DNA of 21,316 nucleotides, taken from assembly GCA_947303825.1 (NCBI GenBank), contig CAMYZK010000007.1, positions 1 through 21,316 of the forward strand, read 5' to 3'. The notes under the pieces were generated by a model, which ran no database searches, was not told where the DNA came from, and saw only the letters and a program-made list of their open reading frames with translations. Positions 12,573 to 21,316 of the stretch are shown here, in pieces. This DNA comes from an uncultured Prevotella sp. Lineage in GTDB: Bacteria; Bacteroidota; Bacteroidia; Bacteroidales; Bacteroidaceae. How positions within the stretch are numbered: the stretch's first letter is position 1; the number at the start of each line of letters is the position of its first letter. The position numbers were made by a program, and so were the translations under genes.

Positions 12573-13595
12573 TTACTTGAACTTCTCGTGACCAGTGAGA
12601 ATGCGCAGGCGGCGAGCCACCGAGCGGAAGATGAACTTGAAGTTGCCGTAGCGCAGGTTGAGCCACAATTCCTCCAGCGAGCGTCCTATCTTTGTGAGCG
12701 GATAACCCCATCCGTTGGCTTTGTACATACGCTTCCAGTAGCCGGCTTCCTCTATCACATAGCGGGGATGATGAAGTGGAAAGGCCAGCTCGTGACGTTT
12801 CATGGTAAAAAGCTGCTTCAGACGCCGGGGCATGGTCTTGAACTCGGAGTAATGGGCTGAGTCGGCCGACGCTCCGATGTTGTTTATCATATTCTTAGCA
12901 GGCATGATGGCCAGGCCCGAGTTGAAAAGCATGGTGGCCCAGAAAACGCTCTCAAACTGCGGACTGCCGCTGTCTCTATGATCCTGGCACATCTTTATGA
13001 AGCTCTTGCGATAGCCTCGCTGACGTATCAGTGCGTCAAGCTGGCGCATGGCTTGCGGATCGTCGAGGAAAGTGTAGTCTTTGTCCCATTGCTGAACAAC
13101 ACGGCGCCACGATGCCCATCCCCAGATGCTGAATGCCGAAGTGAAAAAGTAGTCGTAGGGCATGTCGGGCGTCTCTTCGTCTACGTTGAAGCCCGCCACC
13201 ATGGTGATACGCTCGTCGTCGGCATAGCGGTCGAGCATCTCCTTGCAGAAGGGGAAGAACGACTGCGAGGGTACGACATCGTCTTCGAGCACCATACACT
13301 TGTCGGCCAGCGAGAACGCCCACTGGTGACTGGTATAGCCAGCCACCATGCAGCCAAGGTTCTTCTCCTGATAGTTGCGGTGTACATCGCATTCCCAGTC
13401 TATTTCATTGTCGGATACAACCTTACGGCATGCTTCTATGCCTGTCTTATCGGCATCGTTGCGAGGACCGTCTTGAAAGAGGAACAGCCTGGAGGGACGT
13501 GCCTGGCGCACTTCGTTGAAGACTTGCTGCAACGTGTCGTTACGGGTGAAGAACAGCAACAATACTGCAATATCTACTTTTGCGGGGTACTTCAT
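12573..13595 (-). CDS. GT-A fold glycosyltransferase (HlpA-like / GNT-I-like)
   Basis: This 340-residue protein resembles Bacteroidota glycosyltransferases often annotated as HlpA-like and distantly similar to GNT-I. Seen: the N-terminal strand VDIAVLLLFFTRND, then LFLFQDGPRND (37-47), the metal/nucleotide-sugar motif MVLEDDVVPSQSFF (101-114, acidic E104-D105-D106), and SAFSIWGWASWRR (153-165), a segment typical of this group. It has no membrane helix and probably acts at the cytoplasmic face of the inner membrane. Donor and acceptor sugars cannot be read from the sequence. It is transcribed toward nadD and is cut off from the acyltransferase gene by 294 bp of repeat DNA; I see no TAnnTTTG promoter directly upstream, so it may depend on read-through. 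Confidence 0.85.
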   Translation of the reverse strand: MKYPAKVDIAVLLLFFTRNDTLQQVFNEVRQARPSRLFLFQDGPRNDADKTGIEACRKVVSDNEIDWECDVHRNYQEKNLGCMVAGYTSHQWAFSLADKCMVLEDDVVPSQSFFPFCKEMLDRYADDERITMVAGFNVDEETPDMPYDYFFTSAFSIWGWASWRRVVQQWDKDYTFLDDPQAMRQLDALIRQRGYRKSFIKMCQDHRDSGSPQFESVFWATMLFNSGLAIMPAKNMINNIGASADSAHYSEFKTMPRRLKQLFTMKRHELAFPLHHPRYVIEEAGYWKRMYKANGWGYPLTKIGRSLEELWLNLRYGNFKFIFRSVARRLRILTGHEKFK

Positions 13596-13889: not shown

Positions 13890-14906
13890 TTATGGATTAC
13901 GAATAAATCTTTGAAGTTGTTGCAAGAGTAGTAGGCGCAGCTTGTCGAGCAGTATAGAGCCGACGAAGACTGCTGCTATGAGCAGGACAACACTTAGTAG
14001 GAAGGCCGGGCGCGACAGCTGCCCATGCCAGGCCTGTATGGTGCCGTCGTAGTACTTGGCCAGGAAGCTGCTGCTATGGGTGAGGTAGATGGCCAAGGCC
14101 GATGCAGCCACCCAGTTTATCAGTCGGCTGCTGATGTGCAGCTTACTGAAGAAGAGCAGCAGGAAGGTAGCTGCCACAATTACCGTTGGAGAGTTGTAGA
14201 AGAAGAGCACTCCCCCTAGGTTAAGATGCCATTTGAGCAGGAAGGACGCTATTGCCACCATGAGGCATACTGCTGTATAGACCAGCAGGTCGGCCTTGCT
14301 GCTCAGACGGGTCCATGCCGGCCGGTAGATGCTCATATAGCGGGCAAGGAGGTAGAGGCCCATGAACGATGGCAGGCTGTAGCCGGCACGGAGCCATGCG
14401 GTAGCCTCGAACACCCATCCGAACACCCACTGGAAGCCGAAGAAACACAGCAGCACGGTAGCCAGCTGCCGCCGGGTGGCTGACTCGGCAAAGGTGTTGA
14501 GTACCGGGGCAAGGATGTAGAGGGCTATGTATACCTTTATGAACCAGTAGTTGCCGTCGTTGAGCATGAAAAGGGTGGTGATTGCCTTGGGAGGCAGCTG
14601 CCCGCTAACGCAATATTCTATGCCCAGGCAGAGCACTCCGAAGAACAGCAGTTGGAAGACGAGCTCGGAGAAACGCACCAGGCGGGGCCGTATGGCATAC
14701 CAGCCAGAGAGCATGACAAACACGTTGACACCCACCACCGAGAAGCTCTGTGTGAGGAGCTGCAGGAAGCCCGACAGCGCATCGGCCTCGATGCTGGCTG
14801 GGGTGGGGTGGGGCAGTGCGCGGTAGCTGGCGTGCACTGTCATGATGAGGAGCATGGCCACTATGCGCAGCAGCTCCATATTGCTGTCGCGTGTTTTCAT
14901 CGTCAT
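13890..14906 (-). CDS. acyltransferase family 3 membrane protein
   Basis: This 338-residue polytopic membrane protein looks like an AT-3 (OafA/WecH-type) acyltransferase, a family that O-acetylates or otherwise acylates surface glycans. Seen: DSNMELLRIVAMLLIMTVHA (8-27), with the conserved Arg and His of the family's first helix, and GNYWFIKVYIALYILAPVLN, the second family hallmark; about ten hydrophobic helices follow. ATG at 14906 makes a 4-bp ATGA overlap with the flippase stop, so the genes are translationally coupled. The last codons and the stop are written in ATTCGTAATCC/ATTCGTAAT repeat sequence (13881-13905), so the C-terminus may have been formed by repeat insertion. The acyl donor and acceptor are unknown. 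Confidence 0.88.
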   Translation of the reverse strand: MTMKTRDSNMELLRIVAMLLIMTVHASYRALPHPTPASIEADALSGFLQLLTQSFSVVGVNVFVMLSGWYAIRPRLVRFSELVFQLLFFGVLCLGIEYCVSGQLPPKAITTLFMLNDGNYWFIKVYIALYILAPVLNTFAESATRRQLATVLLCFFGFQWVFGWVFEATAWLRAGYSLPSFMGLYLLARYMSIYRPAWTRLSSKADLLVYTAVCLMVAIASFLLKWHLNLGGVLFFYNSPTVIVAATFLLLFFSKLHISSRLINWVAASALAIYLTHSSSFLAKYYDGTIQAWHGQLSRPAFLLSVVLLIAAVFVGSILLDKLRLLLLQQLQRFIRNP

Positions 14907-16351
14907 TCTATTTTTCTCTTAACTATAAAGCCAACGGCCTCGCGGAAGATGGTGGAGTGCAGGAGCCACAGCGCGGCACAGTAAGCCACGGCTACCATTG
15001 CCACCTTCACTGCTATGCCTGCATACATGTTGCTGATGCCCTGTGTGGCAAGATGAGTAGCCAAGACTATTCCCACTGAGAGCAGCAGATAGGGAGCAAC
15101 ATCGCTCACCGCCTCTGTTACAGTGAGGCCAATCTTGCGGTGAGAGAAGTGGAACCATACGCCCATCCACACTATGTTGACCAGGGCAAAGCCCCTCACC
15201 ATCCATCCTATGCCGTAGGGCACGCAGAGACCCACGACAAGCAGCTGCGCCAGGCACAGCCCTATGGTGCACCACATGTAGGTGGACGAGTGGCCCCGGC
15301 TGATGAGCAGATGGGAGAACAGGTAGCTGACGGGCATCACGGCTCCGGCCAGGCACAGCACACGCAGTATGTGGGCACTGGAGAGCCACTTCTCGGTTAT
15401 CAGGATTACGATAAACTCTTCACTCACCAGAGCCAGACACAGCATCAGGGGGAAGCTGATAAACGCCGTGAAACGCAGCAGCTTGCGGAACACCTGCTTC
15501 TGCCGCTGGCGGTCGTCGTCGGTCTTTGTAAGCACAGGCTGGGCTATGCTGTAGAGCATGTTGGTGATGAGCGAGTGGCCCATGGTGTTCCACTTGTTGG
15601 CTTGGGTGAAGTCGCCCACCTCGGGGGCGGTGTAGAACTTACCCAGCAGCACCGAGAGTACGTTGGTGTTGGCCGCCGTCACAATGTTGGTCACTATCAG
15701 CTTGCTGCTAAAGCCCAGCAGCTCCCTCACAGGGCGCAGGTCGATCTTCAGCGTTGGCCGCCAGCCGGAAAACCAGAAGTTAAGCACACTGACCGACAAG
15801 GTGAACACGATGTTCTGCGTGGCCAGCCCCCAGTAGGCATAGCCCTGATAGGCCATGACAATGCCCACCACGCCGGAAAGGGCCATCGAGACCAAGGTGA
15901 TGATGCTGCTCTGGCGTACCATCATGTTTTTAAAAATGTACGCGCGAGGGGCAATGCTGAAGCTCACAAAGAGAAAACTCAGAAACGAGTAGCGGGCAAG
16001 GGCTGTGAGGCGTGGCTCACCATAGAAGCTGGCTATGAGCGGAGCCGTAAAGAAGAACAGCAGATAGAAACAGACGCTTGTAAGAATGCTCATCCAGAAT
16101 ACAGCGTTGTAGTCGCGCTGTGTAACGTCTTTCTTGCGGTTGAGCGCGGCAATGAAGCCTCCCTCCTGCATGCAGGCTGCTATGGCCGAGAAGATAGCTA
16201 GCATGCCCACCATGCCATAGTCGGCCTGTGAGAGCTTGCGGGCCAGTATGATGCCGAACACCAGTCCCAGCAGCTGCTGCACACCGTTGCTCAGTCCGCC
16301 CCATAGCAGTCCCTTGGCCGTCTTTTCCTTCAATGACTCCTGTCTGCTCAT
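14903..16351 (-). CDS. lipopolysaccharide/polysaccharide flippase (MOP superfamily, Wzx-like)
   Basis: This 482-residue integral membrane protein begins MSRQESLKEKTAKGLLWGG and continues SNGVQQLLGLVFGIILARKL, typical of the RfbX/WzxC (Polysacc_synt) group of MOP-superfamily flippases, which move lipid-linked sugar repeats across the inner membrane. About 12-14 hydrophobic helices are spread over the length, and there is a GKFYTAPEVGDFTQANKW segment in mid-protein, typical of WzxC. I chose the start at 16351: a longer frame to 16417 would read through the promoter (16377-16408) and add an unrelated hydrophobic stretch. It overlaps the acyltransferase start by 4 bp. Substrate is unknown, presumably the glycan built by the neighbouring enzymes. 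Confidence 0.92.
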   Translation of the reverse strand: MSRQESLKEKTAKGLLWGGLSNGVQQLLGLVFGIILARKLSQADYGMVGMLAIFSAIAACMQEGGFIAALNRKKDVTQRDYNAVFWMSILTSVCFYLLFFFTAPLIASFYGEPRLTALARYSFLSFLFVSFSIAPRAYIFKNMMVRQSSIITLVSMALSGVVGIVMAYQGYAYWGLATQNIVFTLSVSVLNFWFSGWRPTLKIDLRPVRELLGFSSKLIVTNIVTAANTNVLSVLLGKFYTAPEVGDFTQANKWNTMGHSLITNMLYSIAQPVLTKTDDDRQRQKQVFRKLLRFTAFISFPLMLCLALVSEEFIVILITEKWLSSAHILRVLCLAGAVMPVSYLFSHLLISRGHSSTYMWCTIGLCLAQLLVVGLCVPYGIGWMVRGFALVNIVWMGVWFHFSHRKIGLTVTEAVSDVAPYLLLSVGIVLATHLATQGISNMYAGIAVKVAMVAVAYCAALWLLHSTIFREAVGFIVKRKIE

Positions 16352-16376
16352 AGCTTCTTTGTAGAAATCAGACTGC

Positions 16377-16408
16377 AAAGGTAGCAGAAAAAGGGCGAAT
16401 GACCAAAA
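16377..16408 (-). promoter_or_regulatory. Bacteroidota-type promoter of the flippase-acyltransferase pair
   Basis: On the - strand TTTG (16408 to 16405) is followed after 20 bp by TACCTTTG (16384 to 16377), matching the Bacteroidota -33/-7 consensus and the yicC promoter in this window (same -7 octamer). Transcription should start near 16370, leaving a leader of about 20 nt before the flippase ATG at 16351. So this pair can be expressed apart from the genes upstream. The rest of the 142-bp gap (16352-16493) is A/T-rich with no clear terminator for the gene before it. Confidence 0.82.
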
Positions 16409-16493
16409 TAATATCAATTTTTCAGCAAAACATTAATGAGAATCACTGTTTTGAGTGAATTTGCAACCGTATCCCTCTTGTTTAAATATAACT

Positions 16494-17747
16494 TCACAGT
16501 CCCATCTCTGTGCAGATGTCGTCAACGACATTCTGGGCTACGGTCTTGCCGCCAGGTGGCAGCAGGTGGTTGTGGAAGAACTGCTCGCGCTGAGGCAGCA
16601 TGGGGTCGTTGCCGCCCAGCACTACGTCGTCAATGAAGTGGCGGATGTCGGCCTCGTTCTTGCCTTGGTAGTGCATGGCGTAGGCCTGGCGGCCAAACTC
16701 GCTCTGCGTGGAGAGCACAGCTGCCATATCCTTTGACACGAACATAACAGGGCGGCGCGAGTAATGGTACTCGGCAGCAAAGGAGCCGCTGTCGTGAATC
16801 ATGGCGTCGCTCTGCATGAACAGGTCGGTATAGGATCCCGTTTCCAGCTGGGTGTTGGGCAGTTGCTGCCACCGTGCATAGTAGTCGTCAGCTCGCTGTT
16901 GTCCCCATTGACTGTGCTCATAAAGCTGGGTGAGCAGTGCGGGGTGGGGCTTGAAGGCTATCTGCAGCCTGTCGGCATATTCCTGGGCCAGAGCCAGCAT
17001 GAGGTCGGCCATCCACAGGAAGTTGGCCCTGGGGGGAAATGCGGAGTTGTGGCTGATGATAGAGAAGTGGGGTGCCCAGATGATGCGCTTGCGCCGACGG
17101 CCATCGGCCATGACTCTCCAGGGATTGCTGTCTATAGGCTTCAGATAGTCGTCGGCATTGGCATATCCCACTACACGTACATTCCTACCTTTGTTGGTGG
17201 CCACATGCTGTGCCTCCTGCAGGTGCAGGGTGCTGGAATAGTAGAGCCGCCATGCCAGGTTGTGGAAATGCAGGTCGTAGGACAGCTTGCCAGTGGAGGT
17301 CCAGAAGCCGTAGGGCATGTAGCACAGCAGGCGGTCGTAGAAGCGGGTGCAGTCGTACTGGTCTATGAGCAGGTGCTCGTAGGGCTGTGTGTAGAAGAGA
17401 ATGTCGGGCTGCAGCTCCCTGCGTATGTCGATAGGTGTTCCGTTGAAGTCAACGTAGCTGATGCCCCGGGCATCGAAGAATGAGCGCAGCAGCAGCATGT
17501 CGCTCTGCCACTCTCGGCTTTTGCAGGGCGAGAGCACTATGGTGGGCTTAAACCGTGCATCGCGGGCCATGAGCTGGTAAACATGCTGGTACTTCCACAG
17601 GGCCACGTCGATAGCCATGAACACCACTCGCAAGGGCCGTTTCTCGCGTCTCAGCCTTTCTGCCAGCCTGCGGTGCTGCCGTTCAGCAGAGCGGTACTTC
17701 CATGCGTGTAGCCAGAGGTAGTTCAGTGTCTGGGAAATCTTGTTCAT
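16494..17747 (-). CDS. CDP-glycerol glycerophosphotransferase-like protein (TagB/TagF family)
   Basis: This 417-residue protein has the GT-B-like C-terminal features of the CDP-glycerol:poly(glycerophosphate) glycerophosphotransferase family: RIIWAPHFS (221-229), AFKPHPALL (264-272), and DLFMQSDAMIHDSGSFAAEY (308-327) followed by RRPVMFV. In teichoic-acid synthesis such enzymes transfer glycerol- or ribitol-phosphate from its CDP carrier; Gram-negative members transfer related phospho-substituents in capsule or O-antigen. The N-terminus is basic (RRLAERLRREKR), as expected for peripheral membrane binding. ATG 17747 has a good GAAGAAGGA ribosome binding site. It is 34 bp after the broken dehydrogenase gene, next to the cytidylyltransferase fusion that may supply its CDP donor. 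The donor itself is not established. Confidence 0.82.
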   Translation of the reverse strand: MNKISQTLNYLWLHAWKYRSAERQHRRLAERLRREKRPLRVVFMAIDVALWKYQHVYQLMARDARFKPTIVLSPCKSREWQSDMLLLRSFFDARGISYVDFNGTPIDIRRELQPDILFYTQPYEHLLIDQYDCTRFYDRLLCYMPYGFWTSTGKLSYDLHFHNLAWRLYYSSTLHLQEAQHVATNKGRNVRVVGYANADDYLKPIDSNPWRVMADGRRRKRIIWAPHFSIISHNSAFPPRANFLWMADLMLALAQEYADRLQIAFKPHPALLTQLYEHSQWGQQRADDYYARWQQLPNTQLETGSYTDLFMQSDAMIHDSGSFAAEYHYSRRPVMFVSKDMAAVLSTQSEFGRQAYAMHYQGKNEADIRHFIDDVVLGGNDPMLPQREQFFHNHLLPPGGKTVAQNVVDDICTEMGL

Positions 17748-17781
17748 TCCTTCTTCGTGATTTTCCTGCGCTACACCGTTC

Positions 17782-18792
17782 CTATCTTGTCGAGGCTTTG
17801 TCCAATCCCCACTGGCACAGACGGTCTATTACCGGCGAGGCAACTTTTTTCTCATGTGCCAACCGACTGATGACTGCCAGGCCGTAGGGAAAGTCTTCCG
17901 TGAAATACCTGCTATGGAAATCGGGTACATAGCCATTGCCAACCCTAAGCATGGGGGCTTGAATGCCTTTAAACGCCTTAATGCTACGCAACTTGGCAGC
18001 CAACGAAGCCGCATCGGTGCTTTCGTAGTAGTCGAGTACGGTGGGAATGCTTCCTTTCCTCACGGGCAAGACTGCCAGTAGCTGCTGAAACTCGTTGTCC
18101 ATGGCAATATACAGTTCGGCTGCCCGCTCTGTCCATTCCTCGTAGAAATATGGTATACGGTTGCAGACATCACCTTCTTTCCAGTCGCTCCATAGGTCGT
18201 AGAGTCTTGCAGGATGCAGCAAGGGATTGCTATTGGAAAGGCTTACCTCATAGTGGTTCGCCATCAGGTGGGTTGGTGTGTTGAACATCTGCTGCAACGT
18301 CTCACACAGTGCTTCTGCCTGCTGCGAACGCTCGACAGCCACCTGTAGACTGTCCTTGAAGCCCAACAATGAGGCGCTGTGGCCATATTCCTTGACGCGG
18401 GCAATGAACGGCACTCGCTGGAATCCGAACAGGGGGTTGGACTGTGGCAGCACCTCCATAGCATCAAAGAAGAAACCTGTGCTGCTTACCACGCTTCCCA
18501 CTGCAGTTCCAGGCTGCAAACAGTTCTTGATGCGTAAGAGCATCTCGCGTATGGAGTAGCCTGGCAGACATATTATCACTATGTCGGCATCGGCCACCAC
18601 GTCTTGTGGGTCACTGCTGATGCGGCTTAGACTAGCATTAAGCAGGTAACCGTCAGGAGTCTCTATTTACAGCTGCCGGCTCCATCTTTCCGGATGGCGT
18701 GTCAGCAGCGACACCTCAACCCCCTGTCGTGTAGCAACAAAACCCGCCACGACATGCCCCAGATTTCCTCCACCACAAATACAAATCTTCAT
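17782..18792 (-). pseudogene. octopine/nopaline dehydrogenase-family gene interrupted by one in-frame TAA
   Basis: Read from ATG 18792 the frame gives MKICICGGGNLGHVVAGFVA, the Rossmann NAD(P) motif of the NAD/NADP octopine/nopaline dehydrogenase family, then meets TAA at codon 42 (18669-18667). The same frame continues to the stop at 17782, with IVIICLPGYS, VVSSTGFFFDAM, FGFQRVPFIARVKEYGH and the SNSNPLLHP motif (about 186-194) that holds the family's active-site histidine. Full length would be 336 residues, near family size. No frameshift is seen and the rest looks undecayed, so the change is probably recent (AAA, GAA or CAA to TAA) or a sequencing error. Restarts after the stop (such as GTG near 18600) would lose the nucleotide loop. 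Intact members join an amine and a 2-oxo acid reductively. Confidence 0.85.
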
Positions 18793-18823
18793 ATCAACTG
18801 TTTAAGGTGTAGAGTTTGTTCAC

Positions 18824-20653
18824 TTAATAACTCTTAACTCCTAACTCATTAAGTCCTTCCACCAGTCGTGTGTTGTCCTCGTGGTTACGCACTGCAATGC
18901 GCATGTACTGTTTCTGAGGCATTAGTCCGGGCTTGCCGCTACAGTCACGGGTAAGAATGTTGTATTGTTTGAGCATGTGTATCACTATCTGGCTGGCAGT
19001 GTAAGGGGGCATCACCTCGCAGAGGAAGTAGTTGGCCTGTGAAGGCATGACCCGCAGGAAGGGCACCTTGCGCAACTGGGCCTCAAAGCTGTCTCGCTCT
19101 TTCACGAATTTGTGGCATGCCCGCTTATAGTCTTTCTCATGCTTGCCGAATATCTGCATGAAGAACTCGGCAAAGGAGTTAAGATTCCATATACTCACCT
19201 CTCTCTTGACGTGTGCTATAAGTTCCTTATCGGCAGAAGCCAGGATGCCCAGCCTGAGGCCAGGTACACCATAGCTCTTTGAGATGCTCTTCATGACTGC
19301 CATGTGGGGAAATGCTTCCAGCGTTTCATCGCAGAGCAATGAATTGGTGGCATAGTCGGTGCTGAAGTCCACGAAGCTCTCGTCTACAATCAGTCGGATG
19401 GCATGCTCGTCGCACCACTTGGCCAGCCGCAGTACATCCAGCTTGGGTATGAAGTTGCCAGAAGGGTTGTCGGGGTTGATGACCATCAGCTGGCAGATGT
19501 CCTTGTCAGTAAAGAAAGCCATCAGGTCATCGGCCGTATAGCGGTAGTCCTCGTTCTGTGGCACGAAGGTCACCTGCTTGTCTTTGTCATAGCGGTTGGG
19601 ATATTCCTCAAAAGTAGGACGGATGAATCCCACCTTCCCCTGCGATTCCTCCATCAGTATCTTTATCAGTTCAGCAGCACCGTTGCCAGGTACAATGTAC
19701 GGCTCGCTCACTCCGAAGCACTTGCTGGCAAGGAGCGTGTTCACTTTCATGCCCGAGGGGTATTCGGTGAGCAGGGTGTCGAAGTTGGAGCGCATCTCGT
19801 CTTTCATCCTTCGGCTGGGGAAGTAGGGGTTTACCAGGTAGCAGTAGTCGAGCATCTGTGGGAATCGCCAGAAGCCGCCATAGCGTCCGTAGTATTTGCG
19901 AATCACATCCTTCTCGTCGGCAAAGAGGGCCTCGGCAATGTCCAGGTCTTGCTTGTCGTCTATCTCATACCACTTCTCGCTTCCAATGGGTAATGCTTTC
20001 AGGTCGTGGCCGTTCAGCAGTGAAATGACTCGTAGCACGTTCTCGTAATACTCGTTCAGTCCCACTGCCTTGGTGTATGCATCGAGGAAAGGTACATACT
20101 TGGTCTGTAGGAACTCACGGCTGAACTTATAGATGTTCACCGTCTTGTAATAGGTGTTGACATCGGCATAGCTGAAAGCTTCCTTAGAGATGAAGTTCAC
20201 AATGTTGTTCTCATCGTCAAGACGCACCATGGTACCGTCCATCCACGATTCATACTTTGCCACCAGTGCCAGATTGGGTTCTGGGTTGTTTGCAATCATG
20301 GAGAGGAGATGGTCGCTGAAGATGAGGTCGCTTTCTATGAGCAGTGTGTCGTCTTGCTGCAATAGCTCCTTTGCCAGTGCCAGTGAGTAGATGTTGTTGG
20401 TACGCTCATAGTCTGGATTGTCCACATAAACTATGTTGAGGCTGTTGTCATATCGTTTTCCGATATAGTCTTTCAGCTTCTGCCCTTTATATCCCACAAC
20501 GATTACTACTCGCTGCAGCTTCAGCCCTGAGAGCTGGAGGAGCAGCCTGTCGATGAGGCGGCGGCCGTTAACTTCGACCATGCACTTTGTGTTGTCGCTG
20601 GTCAGATTGCCCAGCCTGCGGCCCATCCCTGCCGCTAAGATTATTGCTTGCAT
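18824..20653 (-). CDS. cytidylyltransferase-like / PLP aminotransferase-like fusion protein
   Basis: This 609-residue protein joins two enzymes. Residues 1-245 are a nucleotidyltransferase: AIILAAGMGRRLGNLT (3-18), NTKCMVEVNGRRLIDR (21-36), NPDYERTNNIYSLALA (79-94) and LLIESDLIF (104-112); the NIYSLALA pattern recalls LicC/PntC, which activate phosphocholine or aminoethylphosphonate with CTP. Residues 255-609 are a fold-type I PLP enzyme near HisC/CobD: VPGNGAAELI (321-330), NPDNPSG (393-399), IVDESFVDF (422-430), and the PLP lysine 459 in SISKSYGVPGLRLG. The substrate is unknown: a decarboxylase or transaminase making an amino-alcohol phosphate is the best inference. Its last codons and stop consist of GAGTTAGGAGTTAAGAGTTA-type repeat. 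It lies 13 bp after the surface protein gene and 31 bp before the dehydrogenase gene. Confidence 0.86.
   Translation of the reverse strand: MQAIILAAGMGRRLGNLTSDNTKCMVEVNGRRLIDRLLLQLSGLKLQRVVIVVGYKGQKLKDYIGKRYDNSLNIVYVDNPDYERTNNIYSLALAKELLQQDDTLLIESDLIFSDHLLSMIANNPEPNLALVAKYESWMDGTMVRLDDENNIVNFISKEAFSYADVNTYYKTVNIYKFSREFLQTKYVPFLDAYTKAVGLNEYYENVLRVISLLNGHDLKALPIGSEKWYEIDDKQDLDIAEALFADEKDVIRKYYGRYGGFWRFPQMLDYCYLVNPYFPSRRMKDEMRSNFDTLLTEYPSGMKVNTLLASKCFGVSEPYIVPGNGAAELIKILMEESQGKVGFIRPTFEEYPNRYDKDKQVTFVPQNEDYRYTADDLMAFFTDKDICQLMVINPDNPSGNFIPKLDVLRLAKWCDEHAIRLIVDESFVDFSTDYATNSLLCDETLEAFPHMAVMKSISKSYGVPGLRLGILASADKELIAHVKREVSIWNLNSFAEFFMQIFGKHEKDYKRACHKFVKERDSFEAQLRKVPFLRVMPSQANYFLCEVMPPYTASQIVIHMLKQYNILTRDCSGKPGLMPQKQYMRIAVRNHEDNTRLVEGLNELGVKSY
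18830..18850 (-). repeat. AGTTAAG-type repeat forming the 3' end of the fusion gene
   Basis: On the - strand, AATGAGTTAGGAGTTAAGAG encodes the last residues (NELGVKS) of the fusion protein. Just beyond the stop, 18807-18817 has GTGTAGAGTTT, which is also part of the 41-bp unit at 12337-12500. This links the short and long repeats of the window by sequence. Confidence 0.6.
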
Positions 20654-20666
20654 CTTCTTTTATTTA

Positions 20667-21316
20667 TCATTTAACAAACTGTATACGTGAGACGGTCTTG
20701 CCGTTTGCCATTGTGGTACGCACTATACATGGGCCTTGTGCAGGTTTGGTAATGCGCTGTCCGTTCATGTTGAAGAACTCAGTTGTTACCACGTTAGCCT
20801 TCTGAACCTCGCTAATGCCTGAAGGTATGTTGCCAATGAAATAGTCTACAACGAGCACTATACACTGCTGGTATCCTGCATTCTTGAACTTGACGATGTT
20901 GAGATTGTCCAGGTCGAAGGTTACATGGTCAGGATTGGATGCGTTGTTTACACCGAGAATGGTGGTTGTCTCGGGTGTGTAGTCCACACCGCCCACGCTT
21001 GCCCAGTAATTTGTCCGGTCGGTCTCGCTCTTGTTGGTGTAACTCCAGATGGTGATCTTCGTGGCATGACCGTTGTCGGGCAGAAAGAGCGTGTTCTCTG
21101 CTCCGTTAGATGTCTTTATGGTGGTGCGCTCGATGGTCTCGTTGTTGTATGTCAGATTAATCTTGCTGCCTGCCGAGTAGGTCTTCTCCAGATTGCCGGT
21201 AAGTACCATCGAGAAACCCTCGGCAGTGTCGCCGGCATTGCCTGTAAGCATGTTGTTTGCCGTTGTGCCTTGGTATTGCCCGACGGTCATGTTGCCCCAC
21301 GACAGGATGGCGGTCT
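20667..21316 (-). CDS. secreted/surface protein, C-terminal part (5' truncated at window edge)
   Basis: The frame is open to the right edge, so only the last 215 or so residues are seen; ATG 21290 is probably internal, because TAILSWGN before it continues the protein. The visible part is Thr/Asn/Gly-rich and beta-like (NNETIERTTIKTSNG, TKITIWSYTN, YWASVGGVDY), as in Bacteroidales surface proteins and glycan-binding modules. The end, EFFNMNGQRITKPAQGPCIV then GKTVSRIQFVK, is the NLNGQRV-type C-terminal tail found on many secreted Prevotella and Bacteroides proteins, and resembles type IX secretion sorting tails. Function is not recognised. It is transcribed in the same direction and only 13 bp before the fusion gene. 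Confidence 0.82.
   Translation of the reverse strand, partial: TAILSWGNMTVGQYQGTTANNMLTGNAGDTAEGFSMVLTGNLEKTYSAGSKINLTYNNETIERTTIKTSNGAENTLFLPDNGHATKITIWSYTNKSETDRTNYWASVGGVDYTPETTTILGVNNASNPDHVTFDLDNLNIVKFKNAGYQQCIVLVVDYFIGNIPSGISEVQKANVVTTEFFNMNGQRITKPAQGPCIVRTTMANGKTVSRIQFVK

Follow-up and report, generated by a model that had tools for sequence, protein, structure and literature searches.

Protein O-glycosylation in Bacteroidota is encoded by loci of a recurrent layout, in which metG stands first, the wzx flippase follows and two glycosyltransferases come last; in the available portions of the 2025 review that describes it, the stage at which glycan modifications are introduced is given as unknown (PMC12871550). 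According to the accessible excerpts, a locus of the same kind serves the O-glycan of P. gingivalis, which carries an N-acetylhexosamine (HexNAc)-phosphate-glycerol (PMC8729774), and the O-glycan of P. intermedia bears a sugar-alcohol phosphate on HexNAc (PMC10897501). Another phosphate substituent, N-[(R)-1-carboxyethyl]ethanolamine phosphate, is listed for O-polysaccharides in a figure legend of PMC9630907, a review that deals with Proteus mirabilis and Klebsiella. The present work deals with a stretch of DNA of 21316 bases (contig C7, the whole of which is hereafter the window) from the fragmented, 70.7% complete genome of an uncultured Prevotella. Three of its genes, in tandem on the minus strand, encode a fusion protein that joins a nucleotidyltransferase (NTP) domain to a pyridoxal-phosphate (PLP) domain, an octopine-dehydrogenase-family (ODH) enzyme and a TagF-like protein; a flippase, an acyltransferase and a protein with no Pfam match follow. 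We think it probable that these genes form, within a locus of the protein O-glycosylation type, a phospho-tag module which would convert phosphoserine into ethanolamine phosphate and then into cytidine diphosphate (CDP)-ethanolamine, N-carboxyalkylate it by means of the ODH or an ornithine-cyclodeaminase-family (OCD) enzyme, and place the product on an O-glycan. The tag of these rumen Prevotella, small and amino-acid-like, would be borne by surface sugars, probably those on their own proteins.

The partners of the fusion recur well beyond the window. In 80 fusion loci, which are the best 80 of 536 matches in data with one genome per species, the next gene on the strand of the fusion, within 700 bp, encodes an ODH in 52 cases and an OCD in 23; neither was seen in 3, and the ODH is inverted in 2 (L095:11827-12618 and L105:8527-9207, the only such cases among the 80). 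Inspection of 41 further genomes of the family, counted apart from the window's own genome and G343, showed an adjacent ODH in 25 and one within 2.3 kb in another 2; 7 have an adjacent OCD, 1 has an OCD beyond a contig break, and 6 have neither nearby. At the level of whole genomes, ODH occurs in 28/42 fusion-bearing genomes versus 10/159 others (Fisher p ~8e-16), and ODH or OCD in 38/42 versus 13/159 (p ~3e-25); these p-values, from a table compiled by hand from genome match listings, are a guide only because the genomes are related. A genome counts here as fusion-bearing when it has a long match with an E value no higher than 1e-211; the split copy of G164 is included as well, and the next match is at 2e-28. 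A first-pass annotation of the window had proposed the three-gene neighbourhood as a unit, and it does recur, with adjacency kept; absent from that proposal were the setting in O-glycosylation, OCD as an alternative to ODH, and LicD as the usual partner.

The exchange between ODH and OCD, likewise absent from it, is for us the most unexpected result, and provides a clear case of analogous enzymes substituting for each other in one slot. Replacement of this single gene is clean in five colinear pairs of loci. L035 (OCD) and L038 (ODH) are 93.5% identical over 3.9 kb, ending near the fusion end, and 90.5% identical over the 9.0 kb past the slot, starting just inside the following gene, so that the slot is the sole difference between the flanking matches. 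The swap is equally clean in L116/L117 (flanks 93.0 and 96.0%), L099/L081, L070/L057 and L093/L083; in the remaining pairs compared, the differences around the slot extend more widely.

A second enzyme replacement within the same pathway, of phosphate by phosphonate, is found in G175. The locus of this genome (L139) shares with that of its sister G024 (L121) four upstream genes at 76-95% protein identity and, downstream, the ODH (41%), the TagF-like protein (61%), the flippase (71%) and further genes (68-85%). Where L121 has the fusion, L139:3307-7541 holds an NTP transferase, a phosphoenolpyruvate (PEP) mutase (417.8 bits; cut-off 319.55), and a phosphonopyruvate decarboxylase (512.8 bits; cut-off 312.5), as well as a 2-aminoethylphosphonate transaminase that is divided into two pieces (231.8 + 205.9 bits; whole-protein cut-off 360.8). 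These genes would make up a complete pathway leading to activated aminoethylphosphonate, which is the phosphonate counterpart of activated ethanolamine phosphate, and the finding of such a pathway in the fusion's place points to an aminoethyl-P substrate. In G111 (L168), an OCD comes directly after the PEP mutase. Five non-fusion genomes have PEP mutase together with ODH or OCD; in G175 and G111 the two are found together, and in G021, G187 and G079 they are on separate contigs. The window's own genome also encodes a PEP mutase, on contig C165 (L167:4505-5809); in the L139 relative of this protein, a cytidylyltransferase-like domain is joined to the front of the enzyme.

In the window, the three adjacent minus-strand genes reported by the first-pass annotation are present in tandem, within the following set:

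18824-20653, - strand: bifunctional fusion, 609 aa; LicC/PntC-like cytidylyltransferase-type N-terminal domain and CobD/SMUL_1544-like PLP C-terminal domain
17782-18792, - strand: ODH gene with internal TAA; PF02317; open part 17782-18600
16494-17747, - strand: TagF/TarL-like GT-B protein, 417 aa; PF04464, marginal
14903-16417, - strand: MOP-type flippase; best NCBIfam model NF058658 (O-glycosylation flippase)
13890-14906, - strand: acyltransferase; PF01757; 4-base overlap with the flippase gene
12573-13595, - strand: conserved protein, putative glycosyltransferase; no Pfam match; relative (cluster 7) in 26/81 loci

Upstream of the fusion, a partial protein (20667-21290, - strand) with no Pfam or NCBIfam match reaches the contig end and may conceal the actual start of the locus. 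The nearest named-record loci belong to Prevotella-type metagenome-assembled genomes (MAGs), mostly ruminant, and to the isolates P. ruminicola KHT3 and Prevotella sp. tf2-5; the KHT3 locus (L044) holds metG, the fusion, an ODH, LicD and the flippase.

The two-domain architecture of the fusion, described at first pass as CTP-transferase-like plus HisC/CobD-like, is confirmed by Pfam matches to PF00483/PF12804 (residues 3-135) and PF00155 (residues 319-600), with the N-terminal NTP domain at ~1-245 and the C-terminal PLP domain at ~250-609. Among solved structures, PntC (6pd1, 48 bits) and LicC (1jyk, 45 bits) top the list for the NTP part and a nucleotidyl transferase comes third (40 bits); this sequence kinship exceeds that to sugar-phosphate enzymes, at low scores, and favours to that extent the substrate class that had been suggested. 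The sequence nearest to the PLP part is SMUL_1544 (PDB 6oux, 145 bits), CobD 1lc5 reaching 101 bits, and both tie as nearest in fold. The W/N motif of the fusion is of the CobD type as well, and the PLP part shows the fold and active-site sequence of the CobD/SMUL_1544 branch. Since its 172 bits against the NCBIfam CobD model (residues 265-601) lie below the cut-off of 290.55, the fusion is a relative of CobD and not an ortholog. Identity with HisC was rejected: the match is weaker in sequence (135 bits; cut-off ~277) and in fold, and E. coli HisC has no W/N motif. We infer that the fusion is a phosphoserine decarboxylase joined to a CTP:ethanolamine-phosphate cytidylyltransferase.

The ODH frame starts with an ATG at 18792, meets an in-frame TAA at 18669-18667 and reopens from a GTG at 18600 to 17782, giving 272 aa (PF02317, 109.8 bits; cut-off 30) in which the catalytic residues are retained. 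The earlier description of the gene as broken was correct, because one in-frame stop interrupts the frame; if this TAA is real, the strain would add plain phosphoethanolamine or no tag. An OCD copy matches pyrroline-2-carboxylate reductase, 4m54 (which we take to be SbnB), thiomorpholine-carboxylate dehydrogenase and related chains. An intact relative of the window's ODH matches Pecten octopine dehydrogenase (PDB 3c7a) over the full length at 137 bits, and the residues aligned with His212, Arg324 and Asp329 of that enzyme are found in 80/80 ODHs, the positions having been counted by hand on the alignment. For octopine dehydrogenase, PMC2924402 describes the His-Asp dyad and Arg324, the latter as the sensor residue.

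Within 4 kb of the fusion, LicD is present in 82/121 loci and a TagF-like gene in 10/121, never both, and neither is in view in 29/121. CDP-alcohol phosphatidyltransferases lie near the fusion in L183 and L134; as members of each family occur there, three CDP-alcohol-using families alternate beside the same NTP domain. ODH and LicD form a single protein in 6/81 loci (cluster 27: L059, L074, L075, L076, L081 and L085) and also in L158, L159 and L161. Profile matches confirm both domains in the ODH-LicD protein at L076:4871-6667. As a genome-level marker, LicD is uninformative because 150/201 genomes carry it.

The simplest path that would explain all these partners starts from O-phospho-L-serine, which the PLP domain, judging from its closest relatives, would decarboxylate to ethanolamine phosphate. 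The N-terminal domain would then use cytidine triphosphate (CTP) to join ethanolamine phosphate to cytidine monophosphate (CMP), yielding CDP-ethanolamine. In a third step, which the gene exchange supports, an ODH- or OCD/mu-crystallin-type enzyme would couple the amine reductively to a 2-oxo acid. The amine could be ethanolamine phosphate or CDP-ethanolamine, and the existence of ODH-LicD fusion proteins suggests that ODH acts late; pyruvate is the likeliest 2-oxo acid because of the kinship of ODH to octopine dehydrogenase, and it would give an N-(1-carboxyethyl) group whose handedness the two enzyme types may set in opposite senses. A CDP-alcohol transferase, LicD in most relatives and possibly the TagF-like protein in the window, would finally move N-carboxyalkyl-ethanolamine phosphate onto a sugar, probably a HexNAc of the outer O-glycan, and the flippase would export the glycan. 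In the window's MAG the third step would be broken by the stop. The CDP-(N-carboxyalkyl)aminoalcohol route of the first-pass annotation has gained strong comparative support from the replacement of the fusion in G175 and of ODH by OCD, and its product stays a prediction. That predicted product, N-(1-carboxyethyl)ethanolamine phosphate, had been linked there to some Proteus-type O-antigens; the substituent itself is on record, in the R form, and presumably belongs to Proteus.

The fusion might instead be a relative of PntC-AEPT that aminates phosphonoacetaldehyde and activates 2-aminoethylphosphonate, the tag being then a phosphonate. PntC-AEPT comes first by E-value in the whole-chain Foldseek search, which, being made with the whole fusion model, hardly tests the NTP part; the NTP domains of fusion and PntC are the nearest pair by sequence, and there is the PEP mutase on another contig of the window's genome. 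However, the sequence match to 6pd1 is confined to residues 2-208, that is, to the NTP part, whereas the PLP part is of the CobD-type fold type I. Moreover, PEP mutase is no commoner in genomes that have the fusion (7/42) than in the others (28/159, p = 1), and the phosphonate genes of G175 bring their own transaminase and come without the fusion. Membership in PntC-AEPT was thus rejected on the class of the PLP part and on the lack of PEP mutase association, and we regard a phosphonate tag made by the fusion as very improbable. An aminoalcohol other than ethanolamine (e.g. serinol or 1-amino-2-propanol) would result if the PLP domain were a HisC/serinol-phosphate-type aminotransferase or a phosphothreonine decarboxylase. 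HisC-family scores are indeed high, and CobD, a phosphothreonine user, equals SMUL_1544 in fold; but SMUL_1544 is clearly the nearest sequence, the W/N motif is CobD-type and the swap with the aminoethylphosphonate route speaks for an amine of two carbons, which makes this option unlikely in our opinion.

It could also be argued that ODH and OCD leave the tag unmodified and merely share the locus, serving amino-acid or redox metabolism or a separate substituent. Enzymes of other function belong to both families (alanine dehydrogenase, iminosuccinate reductase, lysine cyclodeaminase), certain loci hold fusion and LicD with neither enzyme, and G079 and G138 have OCD copies that stand alone. We judge this decidedly unlikely in view of the genome association, the one exact slot that both enzymes occupy, the joining of ODH to LicD and the retention of ODH or OCD beside phosphonate genes. 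The weakest link of the phospho-tag module as proposed for the window is the assignment of the TagF-like protein. The protein reaches 22.2 bits with PF04464 against a cut-off of 22.1 (an ortholog, 32.0 bits), a fold search gives it the GT-B fold and ranks UDP-GlcNAc 2-epimerases at the top, TarL and TagF coming within 2 Z units of them, and no PDB sequence was matched at E up to 1 when the TagF-like alignment served as query. Its L139 homolog weakly matches the glycosyltransferase model NF046086 (20.5 bits; cut-off 200), and four LicD matches lie elsewhere in the window's genome. An ordinary glycosyltransferase, with a different enzyme adding the tag in this subtype, is a possibility that we take seriously, while thinking it the less probable one. 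We keep the protein as a candidate phospho-aminoalcohol transferase in LicD's place; the TagB/TagF-like assignment put forward earlier is marginal, and the usual partner is LicD instead.

The fusion is also found in nine loci from other families of the order. Fusion, OCD and LicD occur together in L182 and L185; ODH is found in L183 (with a CDP-alcohol transferase) and L188; LicD stands beside the fusion with no dehydrogenase in L184, L186, L187 and L190 (there on the opposite strand); and L189 has no partner, its fusion itself containing a stop. A LicD-family gene directly follows the fusion, with no dehydrogenase, in L135, L133, L184, L186 and L187. The fusion at L135:8847-11236 is a distant one (34% identical) and overlaps a short LicD-like gene; no dehydrogenase lies close by, and this arrangement is perhaps the minimal form of the module. 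In L124 and L125 (genus g3), the fusion has as neighbours a NAD-dependent epimerase and an acyltransferase, not ODH, OCD, LicD or a TagF-like gene. The fusion of L134:7839-9646 is split into two overlapping genes, beside a MATE-type flippase and a CDP-alcohol phosphatidyltransferase. The stand-alone OCD copies, L169:8286-9269 in G079 and L170:8749-9711 in G138, lie away from glycan genes; G079 has no fusion, and that of G138 is on a different contig. A phylum-wide distribution of the fusion was rejected, as only G000 and G343 match at E <1e-60 among 395 genomes; a distant fusion copy used as query finds matches in 10/295 genomes of the order, the window's own included.

As for the setting, the window's flippase has NF058658 as its best NCBIfam model with 696 bits, under the cut-off of 720, and the NCBIfam O-glycosylation flippase is matched by 20/20 relatives scanned out of the 50 cluster members. 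This flippase cluster occurs in 50/81 loci and metG in 46/81; in the window's genome, the gene is broken into pieces on two other contigs, and its 3' end is not directed towards the locus. The acceptor may differ between genomes, because some wider-family fusion loci sit in settings other than the O-glycosylation type. The predicted N-carboxyethyl substituent is not described for Bacteroidota O-glycans in the available portions of PMC12871550, PMC8729774 and PMC10897501. In the open-licence PMC literature, we found no description of genes for opine-type phosphate decoration, nor of biosynthetic genes for N-[(R)-1-carboxyethyl]ethanolamine phosphate. The cassette offers a testable gene set for such decoration and links a very abundant fusion family (at least 8000 relatives) to concrete mass-spectrometry predictions. 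By calculation, a HexNAc oxonium ion with N-carboxyethyl-ethanolamine phosphate would have m/z 399.116 and the tag fragment 214.048; the value would be 327.095 for plain phosphoethanolamine, 413.132 for the aminopropanol form and 457.122 for an adduct of 2-oxoglutarate. The same calculation yields 358.090 and 448.122 for ions whose published values are 358.089 (P. gingivalis) and 448.1211 (P. intermedia). Since the predicted tag maker, carrier and transferases are all inside the locus itself, it also bears on the stage at which modification occurs.

The state of the slot appears random on the tree of 121 fusions. It requires 29 changes, at least 23 of them being forced by well-supported branches of what is a quick tree without bootstrap and with some long branches, and shuffled slot labels need 27.3 changes on average. 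The tree omits L134 (split fusion) and L113 and L135 (distant); L095 and L105, with inverted ODH, were coded as no slot, L144 and L151, with ODH 935 and 2255 bp away, as ODH, and L118 was assigned OCD by hand because its OCD starts on the next contig (L142). The nearest fusion relative shares the slot state in 64/111 cases, against a random expectation of 65.9. Within the 80 fusion loci, co-divergence with the fusion (rho) is 0.66 for ODH and 0.69 for OCD, compared with 0.49 for LicD, 0.39 for metG and 0.12 for the flippase; the cluster 5 acyltransferase, with 0.77, is above both. Given a state that is random on the tree, and a co-divergence with the fusion that is nevertheless closer for both types than for LicD or metG, we tentatively suggest that the slot might be an old two-state polymorphism, in which ODH and OCD would give mirror-image (R or S) N-carboxyethyl tags, both persisting across Prevotella species through frequency-dependent selection by phages or immunity, as with blood groups. 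The opposite handedness would follow from the chemistry of the two families. Alternatively, ODH and OCD may be swapped often among close relatives.

Compared with known systems, many of the fusion loci share with the Bacteroidota protein O-glycosylation locus (LFG) the linkage to metG and to an O-glycosylation-type flippase, and differ from it in that metG lies elsewhere in the window's own genome. The N-[(R)-1-carboxyethyl]ethanolamine phosphate of O-polysaccharides, as listed in PMC9630907, would be the same tag as predicted here, on a different polymer and in a different phylum. PntC-AEPT (6pd1/6pd2) likewise has an NTP transferase followed by a PLP domain in one chain and activates a small amino-P compound with CTP; it is a fused aminoethylphosphonate cytidylyltransferase and transaminase, whose PLP part is named class V, whereas that of the fusion matches PF00155, class I/II. 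SMUL_1544 (6oux) and CobD (1lc5-1lkc), phospho-amino-acid decarboxylases that are nearest to the PLP domain in sequence and fold, are stand-alone cobamide enzymes, whereas the PLP domain is joined here to a nucleotidyltransferase within glycan loci. Octopine dehydrogenase (3c7a) is resembled by ODH in its full length and catalytic residues, and the OCDs of the slot are related to OCD/mu-crystallin enzymes by family match; those enzymes use arginine or another amino acid, whereas the amine predicted here is ethanolamine phosphate or CDP-ethanolamine. Finally, the LicC/LicD system for phosphocholine decoration has in common with most fusion relatives a LicC-like NTP domain and an adjoining LicD; unlike in that system, the aminoalcohol would here derive from an amino acid converted by the module itself, and would be N-carboxyalkylated.

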